From Antedon mediterranea (lineage: Eukaryota; Echinodermata; Crinoidea; Comatulida; Antedonidae), in contig NC_092677.1 of NCBI RefSeq assembly GCF_964355755.1, positions 26,258,101 through 26,322,100 of the forward strand: a DNA stretch of 64,000 bases. Direction: 5' to 3'. The stretch's first letter is position 1. Every line of letters begins with the position of its first letter. Below, one piece after another: positions 51,814-63,337 of the stretch. A program made the position numbers and the translations under genes. The notes under the pieces are model-generated. The model saw only the letters and a program-made list of their open reading frames with translations, was not told where the DNA came from and did no database searches.

Positions 51814-52562
51814 TTATGCGGTAGTTATATCTTTAGTAATACACATTCCACGTGGTTTATCAATATTATCACAGGTCTCAATAGCACATTTCTCACCCTT
51901 CAGATTATTAGATATCTCACCATATTTCTTCCCATTTGCATAATACATCATTATAGCATGTTTAAAGTCGTCCTTCAATCTTGGTTTATCATCCACGACA
52001 CTTATGAATATATTGTCTGCAGAATCAACAACCACACCTCTTACAAGATATTGAACTGGCACTGATCTTAGAAAGGTACCGGAACCATCAAATATTTGTA
52101 ACCGACCAGTGAGATAAACAACGTGACAGTTACTCCACTTCTATCATCTACTTCTTGACCGTTACGATCTTTCAGTTTCAACGTAACGATTGCACGTCTG
52201 TTGTATTTCTGGAAATTGATGTCTTTAATCTTTGATTTGGTGGCAATTCCAGAAGAGTCCACATACCTGCTAGACGAATTTTGAACTCTTCCCGGTGATT
52301 CCACACTTCTTCTTCCAGATAAATCCACGGCTTCTAACAACGCCATTCTTGTGTAATCATTTGGAAGCTGATCGACATTAATCCTACCGTATTCACGTCT
52401 GCATTCCGGACAGGTAAGAACACCATCACGCGTTCGTTGCCACTGGTTTAGGCAGTCCTCGCAGAATGTGTGTTGGCATGGAAGAACTTTCGGTCTTACA
52501 AATGGCCCGTTGTGAACTGAACATTCGGTTAGAGGTTGAATGCTACTCAAATCCATGTTAGC
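51814..52562 (-). pseudogene. RING-filamin-NHL pseudogene with internal deletion
   Basis: The exon starts after CACTTAG at 52,562 and the ATG is at 52,556. It encodes a RING-like domain (C12, H15, C27, H29, C32, C35, C49, C52), then a linker reaching the start of the filamin-like domain (DDRSGVTVTLF). Near 52,110 the sequence jumps into the late NHL region (RLQIFDGSGTFLRSVPVQYL) in another frame, so the original frame soon ends at a stop at 52,068. The NHL part ends early at RGMCITKDITTA. Compared with the intact paralogue at 61,447-62,817, the filamin domain and about two thirds of the propeller are missing. A truncated RING-only protein is possible but not likely functional. Confidence 0.8.
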
Positions 52563-53154: not shown

Positions 53155-53215
53155 CTTTTATGTTGCTCTTAAAACGTTCGTAGCAACTCAGCTGAAGCGA
53201 AATTGTTTCTGATTA
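53155..53215 (-). other. 5' non-coding exon of the RING-NHL pseudogene
   Basis: On the minus strand a segment with GTTGCTACGAACGTTTTAAG ends in AACATAAAAG|GTAGGT, a good donor. The same exon type occurs upstream of the other NHL genes, ending near 59,941 and 63,338. It would splice to the acceptor at 52,562. The upstream border is a guess. Confidence 0.55.
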
Positions 53216-53942
53216 TAAATGATTTATCTGATTGTTGATCTTATGTATAATTTTGATGCAAAGTCCAAATAATAAAAAATTGTAAATACACTGGAGTTTA
53301 GTTTTACACATGAATAATAATTATCAAATTATTATCAAAGAATTATATCAAGATTAGACGGAATAATCCATTAAAGAGTTTGGCAAACTCACGAGAGCGC
53401 ACGTGACCCGTGTCACAACAGGTATACGGATACGTTTGCATTTATAGTTTTATTTTATCGGGTCAAAATGATTTGTTAAAGGGCTAAAGGTAGGAGGTAG
53501 GCCTAAGCCTAGCCCTAGCCAACACTTTTTACTTATTTGTCGTTTTCTTTCGAATATTTTGTATACTAAAACCTCTGAATTTTCTTGAATAATTTATGTT
53601 TAAGTTTTGTTTTAAAATGCAATCTGTGCCACGTTTATTATCAACTGAATTTTCAACGAATAAATCTTAAAAGTGTGAAATACATCCGCACGTCGAAACT
53701 CATTGGAAATCGGTATTACGTACGGTATTGATGTCAAGCTACACAGAATGTGTGACGTAGTACATTAATTTTACTCATACGTATACGGAGGTTGTCCAAA
53801 CTATCATTGCTTATCATTTTTACGTTATTTATTGCTTACATGGAATAGTTAATTATTGTTTACTTCATACTAATTACATGAAACATAGTTTATTGGGATG
53901 CCAGAACATCACTATGCAAATTGAAATTGACGAAATATACTA

Positions 53943-55957: not shown

Positions 55958-55963
55958 TTTTAT
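55958..55963 (-). terminator. AATAAA overlapping the stop codon of the SAM-like/NHL gene
   Basis: The end reads ACT CAA TAA AAG, so the TAA stop sits inside an AATAAA hexamer. A second AATAAA follows at 55,922-55,927, 33 nt past the stop, and is the more likely poly(A) signal. Confidence 0.4.
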
Positions 55964-58900
55964 TGAGTAATGCTAGGAGTTAGTTTGTATTTACGTAGGC
56001 CAATTCCTATTTCGCTGTCATTTGTAACAATAAGAATGTCTTCTCCGCTACTATATTTAGTAATACACATTCCGCGTGGTCTTAGAAGATCAAAATCACA
56101 ATTTTTCTCGAGGTTATTAGATATCTCACCATAAAGTTTTTCATTCGCGTCGTACATCACTACACCATGTTTAAAGTCGTCCTTCTCTCTTGGACTATCA
56201 TCAATAACACTTAGGAATATATTGTCTGCCGAATCAACAACCACACCTCTTACAAGATGTTGAACTGGCACTGATCTAAGAAAGGTACCGGAACCATCAA
56301 ATATTTGTAAACGACGGTTGCCACTATCTCCAACAATCCATTCATCTTTGCTATTAATGGCTACAAAATAAGGGCGCCTAAACTGTCCATCGCCTCTTCC
56401 TTCAGAACCAACTTTACGCTTAAATTCACCGTCAATTCCGAAAATGCAAATGCAGCATTGCTCGTAATCTACAACTACTATTTCGTCATTTCTTGTTAAC
56501 GCAATGCCAGTTGGTTTCTTCAAGACTTCTTCACCAAAACGATGACGTACTCGACCATCTGTATCGCATACAAACACTTCGGTTTTTCTTCGGTTACCCG
56601 CACTTGGCGGATCTTCTGATTTGTCATCCTTATCGATTTTGATTTTGTGGTTATTATCGGTAATGTACAGCAAGCCTTTGTTCGATATCGCTATCCCGAA
56701 TGCGTGGAAATCTCCAAATTCAGTTTCTTTGATTTCGAACGACCGAAAATGTTCACCAGATCTGTCGATTACGTTAACGCAACCCGTACGTTTGTTTGTG
56801 ACGAAGATTTCGTCACCAAAAGCTGCGACATCATGTGCATGGTCGTGTTTCGGTTCTCCAAATACGCTACTGGGCTGACGTAACGGTGGAAATTGAATGC
56901 TATTTGATGCCACCTTGGCCTAAGTAGAAAAATCAACACCTAAGATAATCAAGTGGCTAGAAAAGTGCAAATTATCATTTAAAATGTATAAGGTGGAAGT
57001 AGGCCTACGTTTACCTAAATTCAACACGGCACGCCTTTGGGAAAAAATCAAACGAAACGAATAGAAAGAAATCGTCCATGCATTATTTAAAATAAAGTCA
57101 TTGTTACTAAGATACCGTACAGTTTTCCAAAAACATAAACCAACCTATGGTGCCAGTAGTAGGCCTACCTTGAAATATAAATACTGTATATCATATGCAT
57201 AATGCGTGTCTTTATACTTTGCCCTGAACGTCCGCTAACAACTAAAGAGAACACTTGCACTTATTTATTGATTGTATCTCATATTCGAATGCGAAGTCAA
57301 AAAGTATAAATAAATTACACCATTGTAGTCTGTTTTTATACGAAGTAATTAATTAAAATCATAGGCTTAAAACCCTTCAAAATATTTCAAAGGCATAAAC
57401 CGCCTTCCGTATTATTTTAAAATAAATGTATATTATATCGAGTGTATCGACAGACCGACATAGTGAACTATAGAGTCGTTGTGATCGATAATGTGATTCA
57501 ACACTTTGTACTCGAGGAAACCGAAACATTATATGACATTAAAATAGTTAGGCATATGCGTGCGCATTATGCGTGTTAGTATGACAATATATCGTTCCAG
57601 AGAACTAATCATCGCAGATCTTCTTTTCCTGTTTTCCACACAAGGCGAATTTGTTCGCGGGAATCGAAAGCGTCAGTTTATACGTATGTGTATTCAGGTT
57701 TTCTTCTTCCAAAACCTCCTCTCTGCTACCTCTTTGAGTTTTTCGCTTCAGCGAAATTGTAGTTCGAATTGTTTCAACTTTTTGCGAAGCAAAACATTGC
57801 GCAACCAATCAGAGCTCAGAAATGAGTTATGACGCGTTCATGAGCACTCATGCGAATCGAAAAGCTCAGCAGACACGCGATGAAAATCACAGATCCCCAC
57901 TCTTCTTGTAGTGGTGCAAAGGGTATAGGCCTATACAATTTTTATCTGCGAAACGTTGGATTCATTTGCCTAGTGGAAAACGGGCTTAAAACTAGTATCT
58001 ATTATCTTTCTGATAAAATCAATTTTTGAGGACTAAAGTTACTAACCTTTTTTTCGCTCGTTTGTTGTTTTTCAACTTCATCCTTGGGTTGTTCTTCTTG
58101 TTTCTATAGTAACAAACATGTTATCATTCATGTTAGAAACATATACATTTAATGTCATGAGGAAACAGTAAGAAATTAGAATAGTAAGGATCTGAACAAA
58201 AGAAAAATCATTGATAAACACGGTTAAAAAATTAATAATCATCATTTAATTTTCTATTTTTCAAATAATTATTATAAAAATAAATGTATTGGTCTCATTG
58301 GTGAATCCCTAGATGCGTAGGATTAGGGATCATGTTAAGACATTAATATTAATGGGGTTTCTAAGGTAGAACTACCGCCCCCACCCCACCCCGGCTCTGA
58401 TGAATAAATACTCATTTAAAACCCTTGTTTTTTTAAATACCATTCTTGGTTTGTATTGCCGTTAAGTTATGTAATCCATAATTATACAAATGCATTAATG
58501 GAGTCTAATTAAATATATATGGCATAGAATATATATTTAACCTTCCTTCAAATAATGATCTAAATAGTATGAACAAATTCGCCTAGTGGCTTTAAATTAG
58601 TTTCCTAGATATCTCGAAAACTAAGTAATCTTAGGTCTTTTTTTTATAGACACTCCTGACATAACATGTAGCTAATTATGCTTTGTATTGGTTAAAAATA
58701 CTGGATTTATTGCATTATATTGATTAAAAATAGCAAGTGGCATTTAACTGATAAAATTTATTTTTGAGGACTAAAGTTACCAACCATTTTTTTACTATGT
58801 AATTGTAGTGTTCCACGTTTGGCTTCGGCGGCTTGTTCTTTCAAGTTTTCCTCTTTCTACAATAAAAAGCATGTTATCATTCGTGTGAGAAACATATACA

Positions 58901-59579
58901 TTTAATGTCATGAGAAAACAGTAAGAAATTAGAATAGCAGGGATCTGTAAAAAAAGAAAAATCATTGATAAACACAAAATAAGAGTCCTAAAAAACCATA
59001 TTAGCTAAATACTAAATAATGAGTATGAAATATTATAATCAATAGTGCACTGTGAATCCGTATTTAGTGAAAGTCTAACCAATGTTAAGGCATTTAATGG
59101 GTTCTTTTTCCTAGAAAAGGGGAGGTCAAATTCGTCAGGCTTGCTTGCTTCAAAATAGACAAAATACAATGTGTATTTACGTAAACCGAAAAATGAAATT
59201 AGATCAATTTACCATAGATCCATCTTTAGAAGATTGTTCAACATTTTTAACTGCAGACCGAATGTTCACAATTTGGCCAGCCTTCAGTTTGCAGTTCTTC
59301 AACAGCTCATCAGAGGCATTTTTTATCTTAGCAAGAGTAACCAGCTGAAAAACAATCAACCAACATACTATATTCATTTTCGAAAGGAGGATTGTGTAAA
59401 AACATTTTAAAAGCACTCAACAAAATGTAATAAATATAGTTTTAAATTAAATGTAAGCAAATGAAAAGGTTAGTCATTATGATTGTTAATTCACCAACCT
59501 CTTCGTCTATTAGGACGTCTATAGTTTCTTCCGTGACGCCTTCGTCTATCATATGTTCATACAGGATTTTGTTTTCCAT
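55960..59579 (-). CDS. SAM-like domain / NHL-repeat protein, five coding exons (chimeric gene)
   Basis: Exons 59579-59499, 59344-59213, 58856-58785, 58103-58047 and 56919-55960 all have GT-AG borders, are all in phase 0, and give 433 aa. Exons 1-2 (residues 1-71) form a helical domain with a SAM-like signature (EETIDVLIDEE, then CKLKAGQIVNIRSAVKNV). Exons 3-4 (72-114) are a charged, coiled-coil-prone linker rich in Lys, Glu and Gln. Exon 5 (115-433) is a multi-bladed NHL propeller (EPKHDHAHDVAAFGDEIFVT, later RRLQIFDGSGTFLRSVPVQH). There is no RING or filamin domain. The ATG follows the acceptor TTATAG|AAA; a non-coding exon ending at 59,941 probably lies upstream. Exon 5 begins AKVASNSIQFPPL: this equals the ancestral AAGATGGCA start region of a RING-NHL gene with ATG changed to GTG, fused to the first codons of the propeller. 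The role is unknown; NHL propellers bind RNA or protein, SAM domains oligomerise. Donors of exons 1, 3 and 4 are weak (GTTGGT, GTTAGT). Confidence 0.75.
57160..57245 (-). pseudogene. Relic 5' non-coding exon of an NHL gene
   Basis: The minus strand has GTTGTTAGCGGACGTTCAGGGCAAAG, similar to the 5' exons that end at 53,155, 59,941 and 63,338. It sits just upstream of the propeller exon at 56,919. It suggests this exon once belonged to an independent RING-NHL gene before joining the SAM-like exons. It may still act as an alternative first exon. Confidence 0.45.
57628..57988. mobile_element. MITE family 3, longer copy
   Basis: CCTGTTTTCCACACAAGGCG on the left pairs with the inverse of GCCTAGTGGAAAACGGGCTT on the right. 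GCGGGAATCGAAAGC and CAACCAATCAGAGCTCAGAA are shared with the copy at 39,822. It is in the SAM-like/NHL intron 4. Confidence 0.65.
58000..58985 (-). repeat. Direct duplication carrying linker exons 3 and 4
   Basis: Flanks of exon 4 (about 58,010-58,230) and exon 3 (about 58,745-58,980) match closely: TTTTTGAGGACTAAAGTTAC before the donor and CATGTTATCATTC, GAAACATATACATTTAATGT and AATCATTGATAAACAC beyond the acceptor. The two exons themselves have diverged. Offset is about 740 bp. Confidence 0.85.
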
Positions 59580-59940
59580 TTTCTATAAGGTTATAGAGCA
59601 GCGTTTAATGACTATTTTATCTACTATTTTTGAAAATGTACTTTTGTAATGTAAAATTGACCAGTCTCTGACGTCACCGGATTACACCTACATTATCTAC
59701 ATTGCGCAGAGTGGTGCTCAAGCGGAGACGATCGATCGCTCACAAATTCTGAAATTCTTTAATTACAGCAGGTTAACGATATATGATAGGATAGCTTGTT
59801 TGACTTTACCAACAATTTCAAGCTAGACCACGAACTTGATTGTTAGACAATACCTAAAAATTGGCAGGACCTTAATATGACCATGGCCATTTTCAATTTC
59901 ACCAGAAATAGGCATAATATAATAAGATTTTGTTACTTAC

Positions 59941-60000
59941 CTTTTGTGTTGCTCTGAATATCCGCCAGCACCAACTGAGGCGAAGTTAATTATGCACATT
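59941..60000 (-). other. 5' non-coding exon of the SAM-like/NHL gene
   Basis: The minus strand has GTTGGTGCTGGCGGATATTC and ends AACACAAAAG|GTAAGTAAC, a strong donor. It matches the equivalent exon at 53,155. It would splice to 59,582, three bases ahead of the ATG. The upstream edge is not defined. Confidence 0.6.
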
Positions 60001-60648
60001 ATTGTCATCATTTGCATTGTTAGTATTGACGTACCATAGTTTCTATGTACTAACCAAAGTATATTTCTGAGAAGAGCATTGTATTATTGCAATCTGTAAA
60101 GCTTTTGTAAACTAGTGGCAAACGTAAACATTGATAAAACATCAAATGATCACCTGATATTTGCATAACATATCGATGTAAGATAAAACGGAAAGCATAT
60201 TTACAATGCGTGCAAATGAGTTAATTAATAAATAGGCTTACCTAAAATGTCATTTATGTCCAAATAGCCACGGCAGATGATTAATTTGCGCCGAATACAA
60301 AAAGAGCGGAACGTAATGGTCGAATAGAAAAGTGCCGAATGCTAAAAGAGCCGAATAGAACTAATATTTGCTGTCGAAGGCAGCGGTGGCGTTCCATAGT
60401 CGATTGTTTTTTTTTAATTCGACTTATTAAGTCGACATTTCGACTTACTATAAAAAAATATGTCGAATTGTCGACATACCGTAGTATATCGAAATTTTGT
60501 TATAGTAATAGGATAGTACGTTTACTCATGTGGCATGATTAGGCTTTCGTAGATCACATACGGATAAGATCTGTAATGCCATTCTCGAGTCAGCCGAAAC
60601 ATCGAAAGTTTAAAAGAAAGAACAGACCACATTACAATCTTGGCTTGC

Positions 60649-61446: not shown

Positions 61447-62817
61447 CTATTTGATCAATTTATATTTATGCAATTCCTCTCTGTCACCTGTAACAATAAG
61501 AATGTCTTCTCCGCTACCATCTTTAGTGATACACATTCCACGTGGTTGGAAAAGGTCACCTCTGAGATGATCAGATACCTCACCATAAAAGTTTCCATTC
61601 GAGTCGTACATCATAACAGCATGTTTATAGTTCCTTTTTAACCATGCTCGATCAATAACAACACTGACGAATATATTGTCTGCCGAATCAACAACCACAC
61701 CTCTTACAAGATGACCAACTGGAACTGGTTTCATAAATCGGACGGTACCAGAATTATCAAATATTTGCAAACGACGGTTGTCGCAATCTGAAACAATCCA
61801 GTCACCCTTGCTATTAATGGCTACAAACCATGGATGGTTAAACTGTCCATAGTCTTTTCCTTGAGTACAAAATGTACGTTTAAGTTTACCGTCATTTTCG
61901 AACATAAAAAGGCAGCATTGATCGTAATCTACAACTAGTATTTCGTTATTTTTGGTCAATGCAACGCCGTTTGGTTTCTTCAAGACATCTTTGCCAATAC
62001 GCTGACGTACTTTGCCACGTGTATCGCATACAAACACTTCGTGGTTGTACATATCGGTTATGTACAACAAGCCTGTTTTCGATATAGCTATCCCGAATGG
62101 TTCGAAAGCGAACATGTTGGTCTCTTTGATTTCGAACGACCGTAGATGTTTACCAGACCGATTGGTTACTACAACACAATGACCCCCCTTATCTGTGACA
62201 AAGAGTTCCTCCTCAAAAGCTGCAACATCATGTGAATGTTCGTATTTTACTTCTCCAAATACGCTACTGGTTTGACGTAACGGTGGAAATATTGTCAACT
62301 CTCTTGGCGAGTTCGAGAGGTACGTTCCATTTACAGATGCGTATATCTTGTAAGTACCACTTGAGGTCAGACGGAACGTATACTCCCGACACGTGTCTTC
62401 ATTACCATATTCTACAATACCACCACCTGGATAAACCACCTTTATAATAAGGCCTACTCCACTTCTGTCTTCTACTGCTTGACCGTTCATGTTCTTCAGT
62501 TTAAGCGTAACGGTTGCTCTTGCTTTGTGTTTCTCACATCTTACGTCTTTGATCTTCGATTTGGTGGCGTCAACTGGTGAATCTATGGCTTGTAACAAAG
62601 CCAACGTTGTACGATCATTTGGAAGATCATGGACGTCGATCCTGCCATACTCATACCTGCATGTTGGGCAAAGTAGTGATCCTCCAGATGTCTCTTGACA
62701 TCTTTTTAAACAGTCTTCACAGAATGTATGTTGGCATTCCGGTAGCAGCTTTGGTCTTTCAAATGGTCCCATGTGAATTGGACATTCGGTTAGAGGTTGA
62801 AGGCTATGCAGTGCCAT
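61447..62817 (-). CDS. RING-filamin-NHL protein (TRIM-NHL-like, no B-box)
   Basis: One coding exon, 456 aa. Residues 12-53 form a RING-like zinc finger with C12, H15, C28, H30, C33, C36, C50 and C53; the second ligand is His instead of the usual Cys. There is no B-box or coiled coil. A filamin-type immunoglobulin fold spans about 84-176 (KSKIKDVRCEKH to YLSNSPRELTIF). An NHL propeller fills 188-455 with repeating blades (HDVAAFEEELFVTDKGG, PFGIAISKTGLLYITDMYN, KPNGVALTKNNEILVVDYDQ, and so on). RING proteins usually act as E3 ubiquitin ligases; the propeller would bind the target protein or RNA. The acceptor ACTAAAG at 62,827 lies ten bases before the ATG and a 5' exon ending at 63,338 fits it. 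The paralogue at 51,814 is broken, so this is the one intact RING-NHL gene here. Confidence 0.9.
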   Translation of the reverse strand: MALHSLQPLTECPIHMGPFERPKLLPECQHTFCEDCLKRCQETSGGSLLCPTCRYEYGRIDVHDLPNDRTTLALLQAIDSPVDATKSKIKDVRCEKHKARATVTLKLKNMNGQAVEDRSGVGLIIKVVYPGGGIVEYGNEDTCREYTFRLTSSGTYKIYASVNGTYLSNSPRELTIFPPLRQTSSVFGEVKYEHSHDVAAFEEELFVTDKGGHCVVVTNRSGKHLRSFEIKETNMFAFEPFGIAISKTGLLYITDMYNHEVFVCDTRGKVRQRIGKDVLKKPNGVALTKNNEILVVDYDQCCLFMFENDGKLKRTFCTQGKDYGQFNHPWFVAINSKGDWIVSDCDNRRLQIFDNSGTVRFMKPVPVGHLVRGVVVDSADNIFVSVVIDRAWLKRNYKHAVMMYDSNGNFYGEVSDHLRGDLFQPRGMCITKDGSGEDILIVTGDREELHKYKLIK

Positions 62818-63337
62818 CTTGTACCTTTAGTTAAGAAAAAAAACATACGAATCAAATGATTTGTCTTAGAAATTAGGTAGGCCTATACTGGTGATCCAAA
62901 TGTTGATATACTTAGCTATACGAGATAACCTGTACCCAATATGTTGAAGAGGTGATACTAGGTCAGAGTTTATTGCCTATGCCTATCACGTGAATAAAAT
63001 AAATGAAAATAATATGGCTCTAAACGGACTGACCATATAGATATGCATCTACGAACCTAAGTGCGAAAACCAATTTTAATCCATACGCTATATGTAGTCC
63101 AAAACAGTTTTAATGAAAACACTTTTAACGCACACCTACAATAACAGTCCATCCCGCACGTACAATGGATCGAAAGTATTGACCACCATTTTATTTCTGA
63201 TTTCTACCATAACACCAAAGCACAGTACAGTAGATGGAACAGACTGCTCTATTTTTAAGTTTAGTAAAAATGAATACGGCTATTTAGTATTTTAAATTTA
63301 TATGTATAAACATGGTAGTCTACCGGTGGTACATTAC

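Follow-up and report, generated by a model that had tools for sequence, protein, structure and literature searches.

The window analysed here, a 64,000-nucleotide stretch of the 354-Mb Antedon mediterranea genome (C8:26,258,101-26,322,100), probably carries a real, rapidly evolving chimeric gene without a RING domain that arose by exon shuffling within a tandem array of RING-filamin-NHL genes; we give this reading a probability of roughly 0.63. The gene is of a known kind and differs by having an NHL propeller without RING and filamin, placed behind a module of no assigned family. All of its features lie on the minus strand.

The gene structure claimed in the earlier note is present at 59,579-55,960, where five exons, each a multiple of three in length, bordered by AG and GT and joined in phase 0, give an open frame of 433 aa without a stop. 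Exon 1 (59,499-59,579; 81 nt) contains the start codon and the first half of a module initially described as SAM-like (MENKILYEHMIDEGVTEETIDVLIDEE); an acceptor-like TTATAG precedes its ATG by 3 nt, and its ending matches those of relatives on C9 and C1, in which the intron start is also similar. Exon 2 (59,213-59,344; 132 nt) encodes the second half of the module (LVTLAKIKNASDELLKNCKLKAGQIVNIRSAVKNVEQSSKDGSM), which spans 71 aa once spliced, exons 3 (58,785-58,856; 72 nt; KEENLKEQAAEAKRGTLQLHSKKM) and 4 (58,047-58,103; 57 nt; KQEEQPKDEVEKQQTSEKK) encode charged linkers, and exon 5 (55,960-56,919; 960 nt including the stop) combines a former start region with an NHL beta-propeller. With their flanks, exons 3 and 4 are tandem duplicates (58,986-58,725 and 58,233-57,987), and their upstream intron flank is better conserved than the exons themselves, being 88% identical against 72% for the exons without gaps, with 15 gap columns (P = 0.012, Fisher test). 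Several donor and acceptor scores of the gene are modest and that of the exon 5 acceptor is good. As unrelated exons join in phase 0 in one third of cases by chance, the open junction between exons 4 and 5 is on its own weak evidence. Within 3 kb we found no other long phase-0 exon with a good acceptor, save for an acceptor inside exon 5 itself. There are strong indications that exon 4 is spliced to exon 5.

About 360 bases upstream of the exon 1 ATG lies a candidate 5' UTR exon (59,941-60,063), homologous to the 5' UTR exon (53,155-53,274, minus strand) of a broken RING-NHL copy at 52 kb over a 152-bp alignment (E = 1e-7) that none of 500 shuffles matched. Its donor at 59,940, AAAAG/GTAAGT, is intact and strong (score 7.9), and in the module relatives on C9 and C1 an acceptor stands 0-3 bases before the ATG. 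Given this intact donor upstream and the acceptors just before the start codons of module genes, the chimeric gene may use the candidate exon and be transcribed from a RING-NHL-type promoter.

After the acceptor CTACTTAG, exon 5 opens with GCCAAG, now read as Ala-Lys, and GTG, now read as Val (together 56,911-56,919). Similarity to the 5' ends of the local RING-filamin-NHL genes extends from approximately 20 bases within the preceding intron through the first 27 bases of the exon, and the GTG faces an ATG in all three aligned relatives. The alignment to the copy at 52.5 kb covers 46 bp (E = 3e-4) and that to the first L034 copy, past the end of the window, 56 bp (E = 3e-5), the core of the latter pairing TTTTCTACTTAGGC--CAAGGTGGCATCA with TTTTCTACTTAGGCTACAAGATGGCGTCA. 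Local alignment scores for the three copies were 22.0, 18.9 and 25.9, and 0 of 500 dinucleotide shuffles reached each of these. As the codon is aligned with three paralogue starts at scores beyond those of the shuffles, we read the GTG as a former ATG. The earlier note had proposed this change on the basis of two paralogue starts, AAGATGGCACTGC at 62,817 and AACATGGATTTG at 52,556, and we found both in place. Its reading of Ala-Lys-Val as former 5' UTR holds for Ala-Lys, while Val is the former start codon itself. Similarly, the frame is joined to FPPLRQ as claimed, though not directly, since six codons (56,893-56,910; ASNSIQ, comparable with DLSSIQ at 52.5 kb) intervene after the former start. 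They are what is left of the RING protein's N-terminus, brought into frame with the NHL part when RING and filamin were deleted. In the 52-kb copy, too, 6 bases separate the acceptor from the ATG (phase 0), against 8 in the L034 copy, so that compatibility with a phase-0 donor may have existed beforehand in the sister lineage.

The old first exon of this NHL copy can also be traced. A remnant of its former 5' UTR exon lies at 57,175-57,316 and is homologous to its counterpart in the 52-kb copy (no shuffle out of 500 scored as high). The ancestral donor, AAAAG/GTAGGT in the 52-kb copy, has become AAAG/ACACGC, its GT now being AC, and a cryptic donor, CAAG/GTAGGC, is found at 57,168 (score 5.7). 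A region at 63.4 kb was considered as a further homologue of the remnant and rejected, as the similarity was not significant. Comparison with the paralogues thus demonstrates three changes in the DNA: the deletion of RING and filamin, the loss of the start codon and the loss of the donor. Homology of the exon 4 flank stops at 57,986 and homology to the RING-NHL copy starts at 57,316, placing the boundary of the join in intron 4, between these positions; the intron phases match. The same intron contains, between the module and NHL-copy segments, a dispersed repeat of approximately 370 bp (57,600-57,990, unstranded) that recurs on many chromosomes in at least 39 further copies of about 76% identity, and recombination at this repeat is a plausible route of the join.

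The NHL part of exon 5 (55,960-56,892; 310 aa and the stop, YITDNNH being followed by a 22-aa insert that keeps the frame) is predicted to form a complete and intact propeller. A profile search of the 433-aa protein matched NHL (Pfam, 1.4e-13), and the best PDB relative was the NHL domain of TRIM2, both by sequence (phmmer, 1.6e-45) and by structure (Foldseek, 7e-20). The AlphaFold2 model of the propeller, built with 22 sequences from this genome, had a pLDDT of 86 and a pTM of 0.87; confidence was very low for the first nine residues, including Ala-Lys-Val, and reduced for the 22-aa insert. Pfam detected no RING in the 433-aa protein, whereas the paralogue scored 2.4e-06 for zf-RING_UBOX, and the product should therefore lack RING ubiquitin-ligase activity. 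The filamin domain that precedes NHL in the paralogues is deleted, ASNSIQ meeting FPPLRQ directly, and neither the chimera nor the local paralogue showed a B-box or coiled coil in the Pfam search.

The nearest relatives of exon 5 are the RING-filamin-NHL gene at 62.8-61.4 kb (61,447-62,826, minus strand; a 459-aa open frame starting immediately behind the acceptor, with the protein start ATG at 62,817), two more copies in L034 beyond the window end, and the copy at 52.5-51.8 kb (51,829-52,562, minus strand). Identity to the local copies is 62-65% in the alignment. The 52-kb copy, broken by an out-of-frame internal deletion that kept the RING and the NHL tail, is the closest of these: it has a two-residue deletion in common with exon 5 and is identical to it at 205 of 243 aligned tail bases. 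These alignments support the proposed descent of exon 5 from a RING-NHL gene that lost RING and filamin. Separately, the copy at L034:2968-4280 has lost its RING, with a stop in the remnant, and keeps an open filamin-NHL frame, so that RING loss has happened more than once in the cluster. Between the 62.8-kb gene and the chimera there is also a decayed NHL fragment (60,868-60,736).

Exons 1-4 have another source. Three single-sequence genome searches returned relatives of exons 1-2 at C9:8,816,801 (43% identity) and in three copies on C1 (8,611,844, 8,616,642 and 8,687,447). The window gene and its C9 and C1 relatives all have the module split at the same residue, and the introns that follow begin with similar bases (GTTGGTGAATTAACAAT in the window, GTTATTGAATTAACAAT on C9, GTTAGTGAATAAACATT on C1). 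The view that exons 1-4 belong to a different gene family, with its own conserved exon structure, is supported, and the NHL and module families are each found independently in the genome. An origin of exons 1-4 as a processed retrocopy was rejected, as the introns are kept. The SAM-like identity suggested for exons 1-2, in contrast, was not confirmed. Like SAM domains, the module is short, helical-looking and N-terminal, but no Pfam SAM model passed its cut-off for it and none matched the window protein at E values up to 1; the best model, SAM_EPH, reached E = 0.039 in one of the five module members. Sequence and profile searches against PDB gave no significant match. Alignment by hhalign to 11 SAM domains of the same genome was weak, though in the expected register (P = 0.037, probability 1.4%; P = 0.6 for the NHL control).

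The relatives of the module differ in what follows it. The C9 gene (C9:8,816,801-8,820,614; L035:2802-6615) has the same module and two tandemly related linker exons, with an unrelated 183-aa terminal exon that can be joined in phase 0, has a hydrophobic C-terminus and matches no Pfam family. In its first 85 residues, this exon matches a domain whose exons are repeated in tandem on C8 (26.35-26.48 Mb), at a distance of 30-160 kb from the end of the window. A fossil start codon within it (MEDAQ) was considered and rejected, as the array copies have Leu or another residue there. The three C1 copies (C1:8,611,844-8,688,248; L044, L045 and L062) lie in a repeat-rich region with ankyrin-like exons downstream. 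For the 8,616,642 copy, these exons are a few kb away in the same orientation (Ank, E = 0.00035), and ankyrin repeats are probably the C-terminus of the C1 genes, with the exons presumably spliced to the module. In all, the module seems to occur with three kinds of C-terminal part, and the fact that its C9 and C1 members keep the exon boundaries and differ in their C-termini supports fusion by exon shuffling. Extending this to a mobile N-terminal unit, consisting of two exons and tandemly duplicated phase-0 linkers, that was joined to NHL on C8, to a novel array domain on C9 and to ankyrin on C1, is a more tentative proposal that we hold to be somewhat doubtful; if true, it would describe a fast-evolving exon-shuffling family of class 0-0, probably intracellular and perhaps involved in recognition or defence.

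Taken as a history, the chimera would have started from an array copy, sister to the broken 52-kb copy, in which an in-frame deletion removed RING and filamin and left the first codons and the NHL propeller. This copy would have lost the ancestral donor of its own first exon and had its ATG changed to GTG while acceptor and frame stayed intact. A separate small family, with a two-exon helical-looking module and phase-0 linkers, would have ended up upstream of it, oriented the same way, perhaps because the repeat now found on the boundary served as a site of recombination, and exon 4 of the module gene would now splice to the old NHL acceptor. The loss of start and donor may have preceded or followed the arrival of the module.

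The main rival to a chimeric gene is that exon 5 is a young, decaying NHL pseudogene, the upstream gene ending elsewhere or itself dying and the phase-0 join, at its one-in-three chance, being coincidental. We consider this unlikely, though several points favour it: exon 5 has lost its start codon and its own donor, two neighbouring copies (52 kb and 60.8 kb) are broken, and omega is not below 1 on exon 5 after the split from the 52-kb copy or on exons 1-2 of the window gene. Codon models over 272 codons revealed constraint on the exon 5 branch as a whole, with an omega of 0.54 (below 1 at P = 0.019) against 0.32 for the rest (P = 0.07 for the difference). For the part after the split from the sister copy at 52 kb, omega was 2.3, not different from 1, and no constraint could be demonstrated with these models. 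Similarly, the family of exons 1-2 has an omega of 0.44, below 1 (log-likelihood difference 4.7), while the window branch alone is not distinguishable from 1. The fusion may be functional, as the earlier note suggested; constraint is evident over the whole exon 5 branch and not for the time after the split. Against decay, the 319 codons of exon 5 contain no stop or frameshift despite a split from the 52-kb copy approximately 16% deep in the common tail, all indels visible against other copies are multiples of three, the acceptor is intact, and exon 4 has no other long phase-0 target in the 3 kb scanned. In a neutral simulation that assumed an indel rate of 0.1 per substitution, the open frame of exon 5 survived with frequencies of 0.13, 0.0175 and 0.0003 at 2, 4 and 7% divergence; divergence over the later part of the branch amounts to some 7% per base, and the start may have been lost early or late.

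Far less probable is that exon 5 is transcribed alone from a remnant promoter near 57.3 kb and spliced from the 57,168 donor, with GTG serving as a near-cognate start. The remnant of the UTR exon is present, the cryptic donor could serve such a transcript and the context of the GTG is good (AAGGTGG), but the ancestral donor is lost and GTG is an inefficient start codon in animals. No ATG-initiated protein could contain the whole propeller, since the first ATG in frame is located far within it. We give marginally less credence still to exon 5 being an alternative last exon, with the fused form a minor isoform and another, undetected terminal exon in the module gene: the linker exons are all of phase 0-0, leaving the choice of exon free, and the C9 relative has a different type of terminal exon, but in the 3 kb scanned no exon other than exon 5 combines a good acceptor with a long open frame in phase 0.

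For the chimeric gene, the 433-aa product would consist of a short, possibly self-associating module, a charged flexible linker and the NHL propeller. NHL domains of the TRIM-NHL family can bind RNA (PMC5908797). As the likeliest activity, we infer that the propeller recognises the same RNA or protein ligands as its RING-NHL siblings while the N-terminus clusters the protein, which would then act as a scaffold or compete with those siblings. Like the TRIM-NHL and RING-filamin-NHL proteins (TRIM2/3, TRIM71/LIN-41, Brat, Thin), it has a complete propeller, and its local paralogues have RING, filamin and NHL; it differs from them in lacking RING, B-box, coiled coil and filamin, in having another N-terminal module and in taking its start codon from another gene family. 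Literature searches for SAM-NHL architectures returned nothing.

Lists of protein domains are the usual basis for inferring that a gene was born by fusion; here the steps are legible in the DNA as an in-frame deletion, a fossil start codon, a dead old donor and a repeat at the boundary. If transcribed, the gene would be a clean example of an NHL propeller freed from a RING ligase and given a new N-terminus. As in other exon-shuffled chimeric genes (PMC8001218), there are two separate parental families, and equal intron phase on both sides keeps the frame open. The domain types reviewed for metazoan exon shuffling are of class 1-1 (PMC8001218), whereas all modules here are of class 0-0 and the family of the chimera appears to shuffle exons of that class. 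The domain matched by the C9 terminal exon is itself found in about 25 tandem exons at C8:26,352,406-26,478,994 (L047-L057), whose genes we examined in 3-kb pieces. The domain, of approximately 85 aa (DCGSEITL...YSLYAGNK...FRDEDGSIKT), is uncharacterised and had no match in Pfam, and no convincing module remnants were seen beside these exons. Many of the exons are bounded by phase-0 splice sites, for example the acceptor TTTTAACACAG and the donor AAG/GTAATC.
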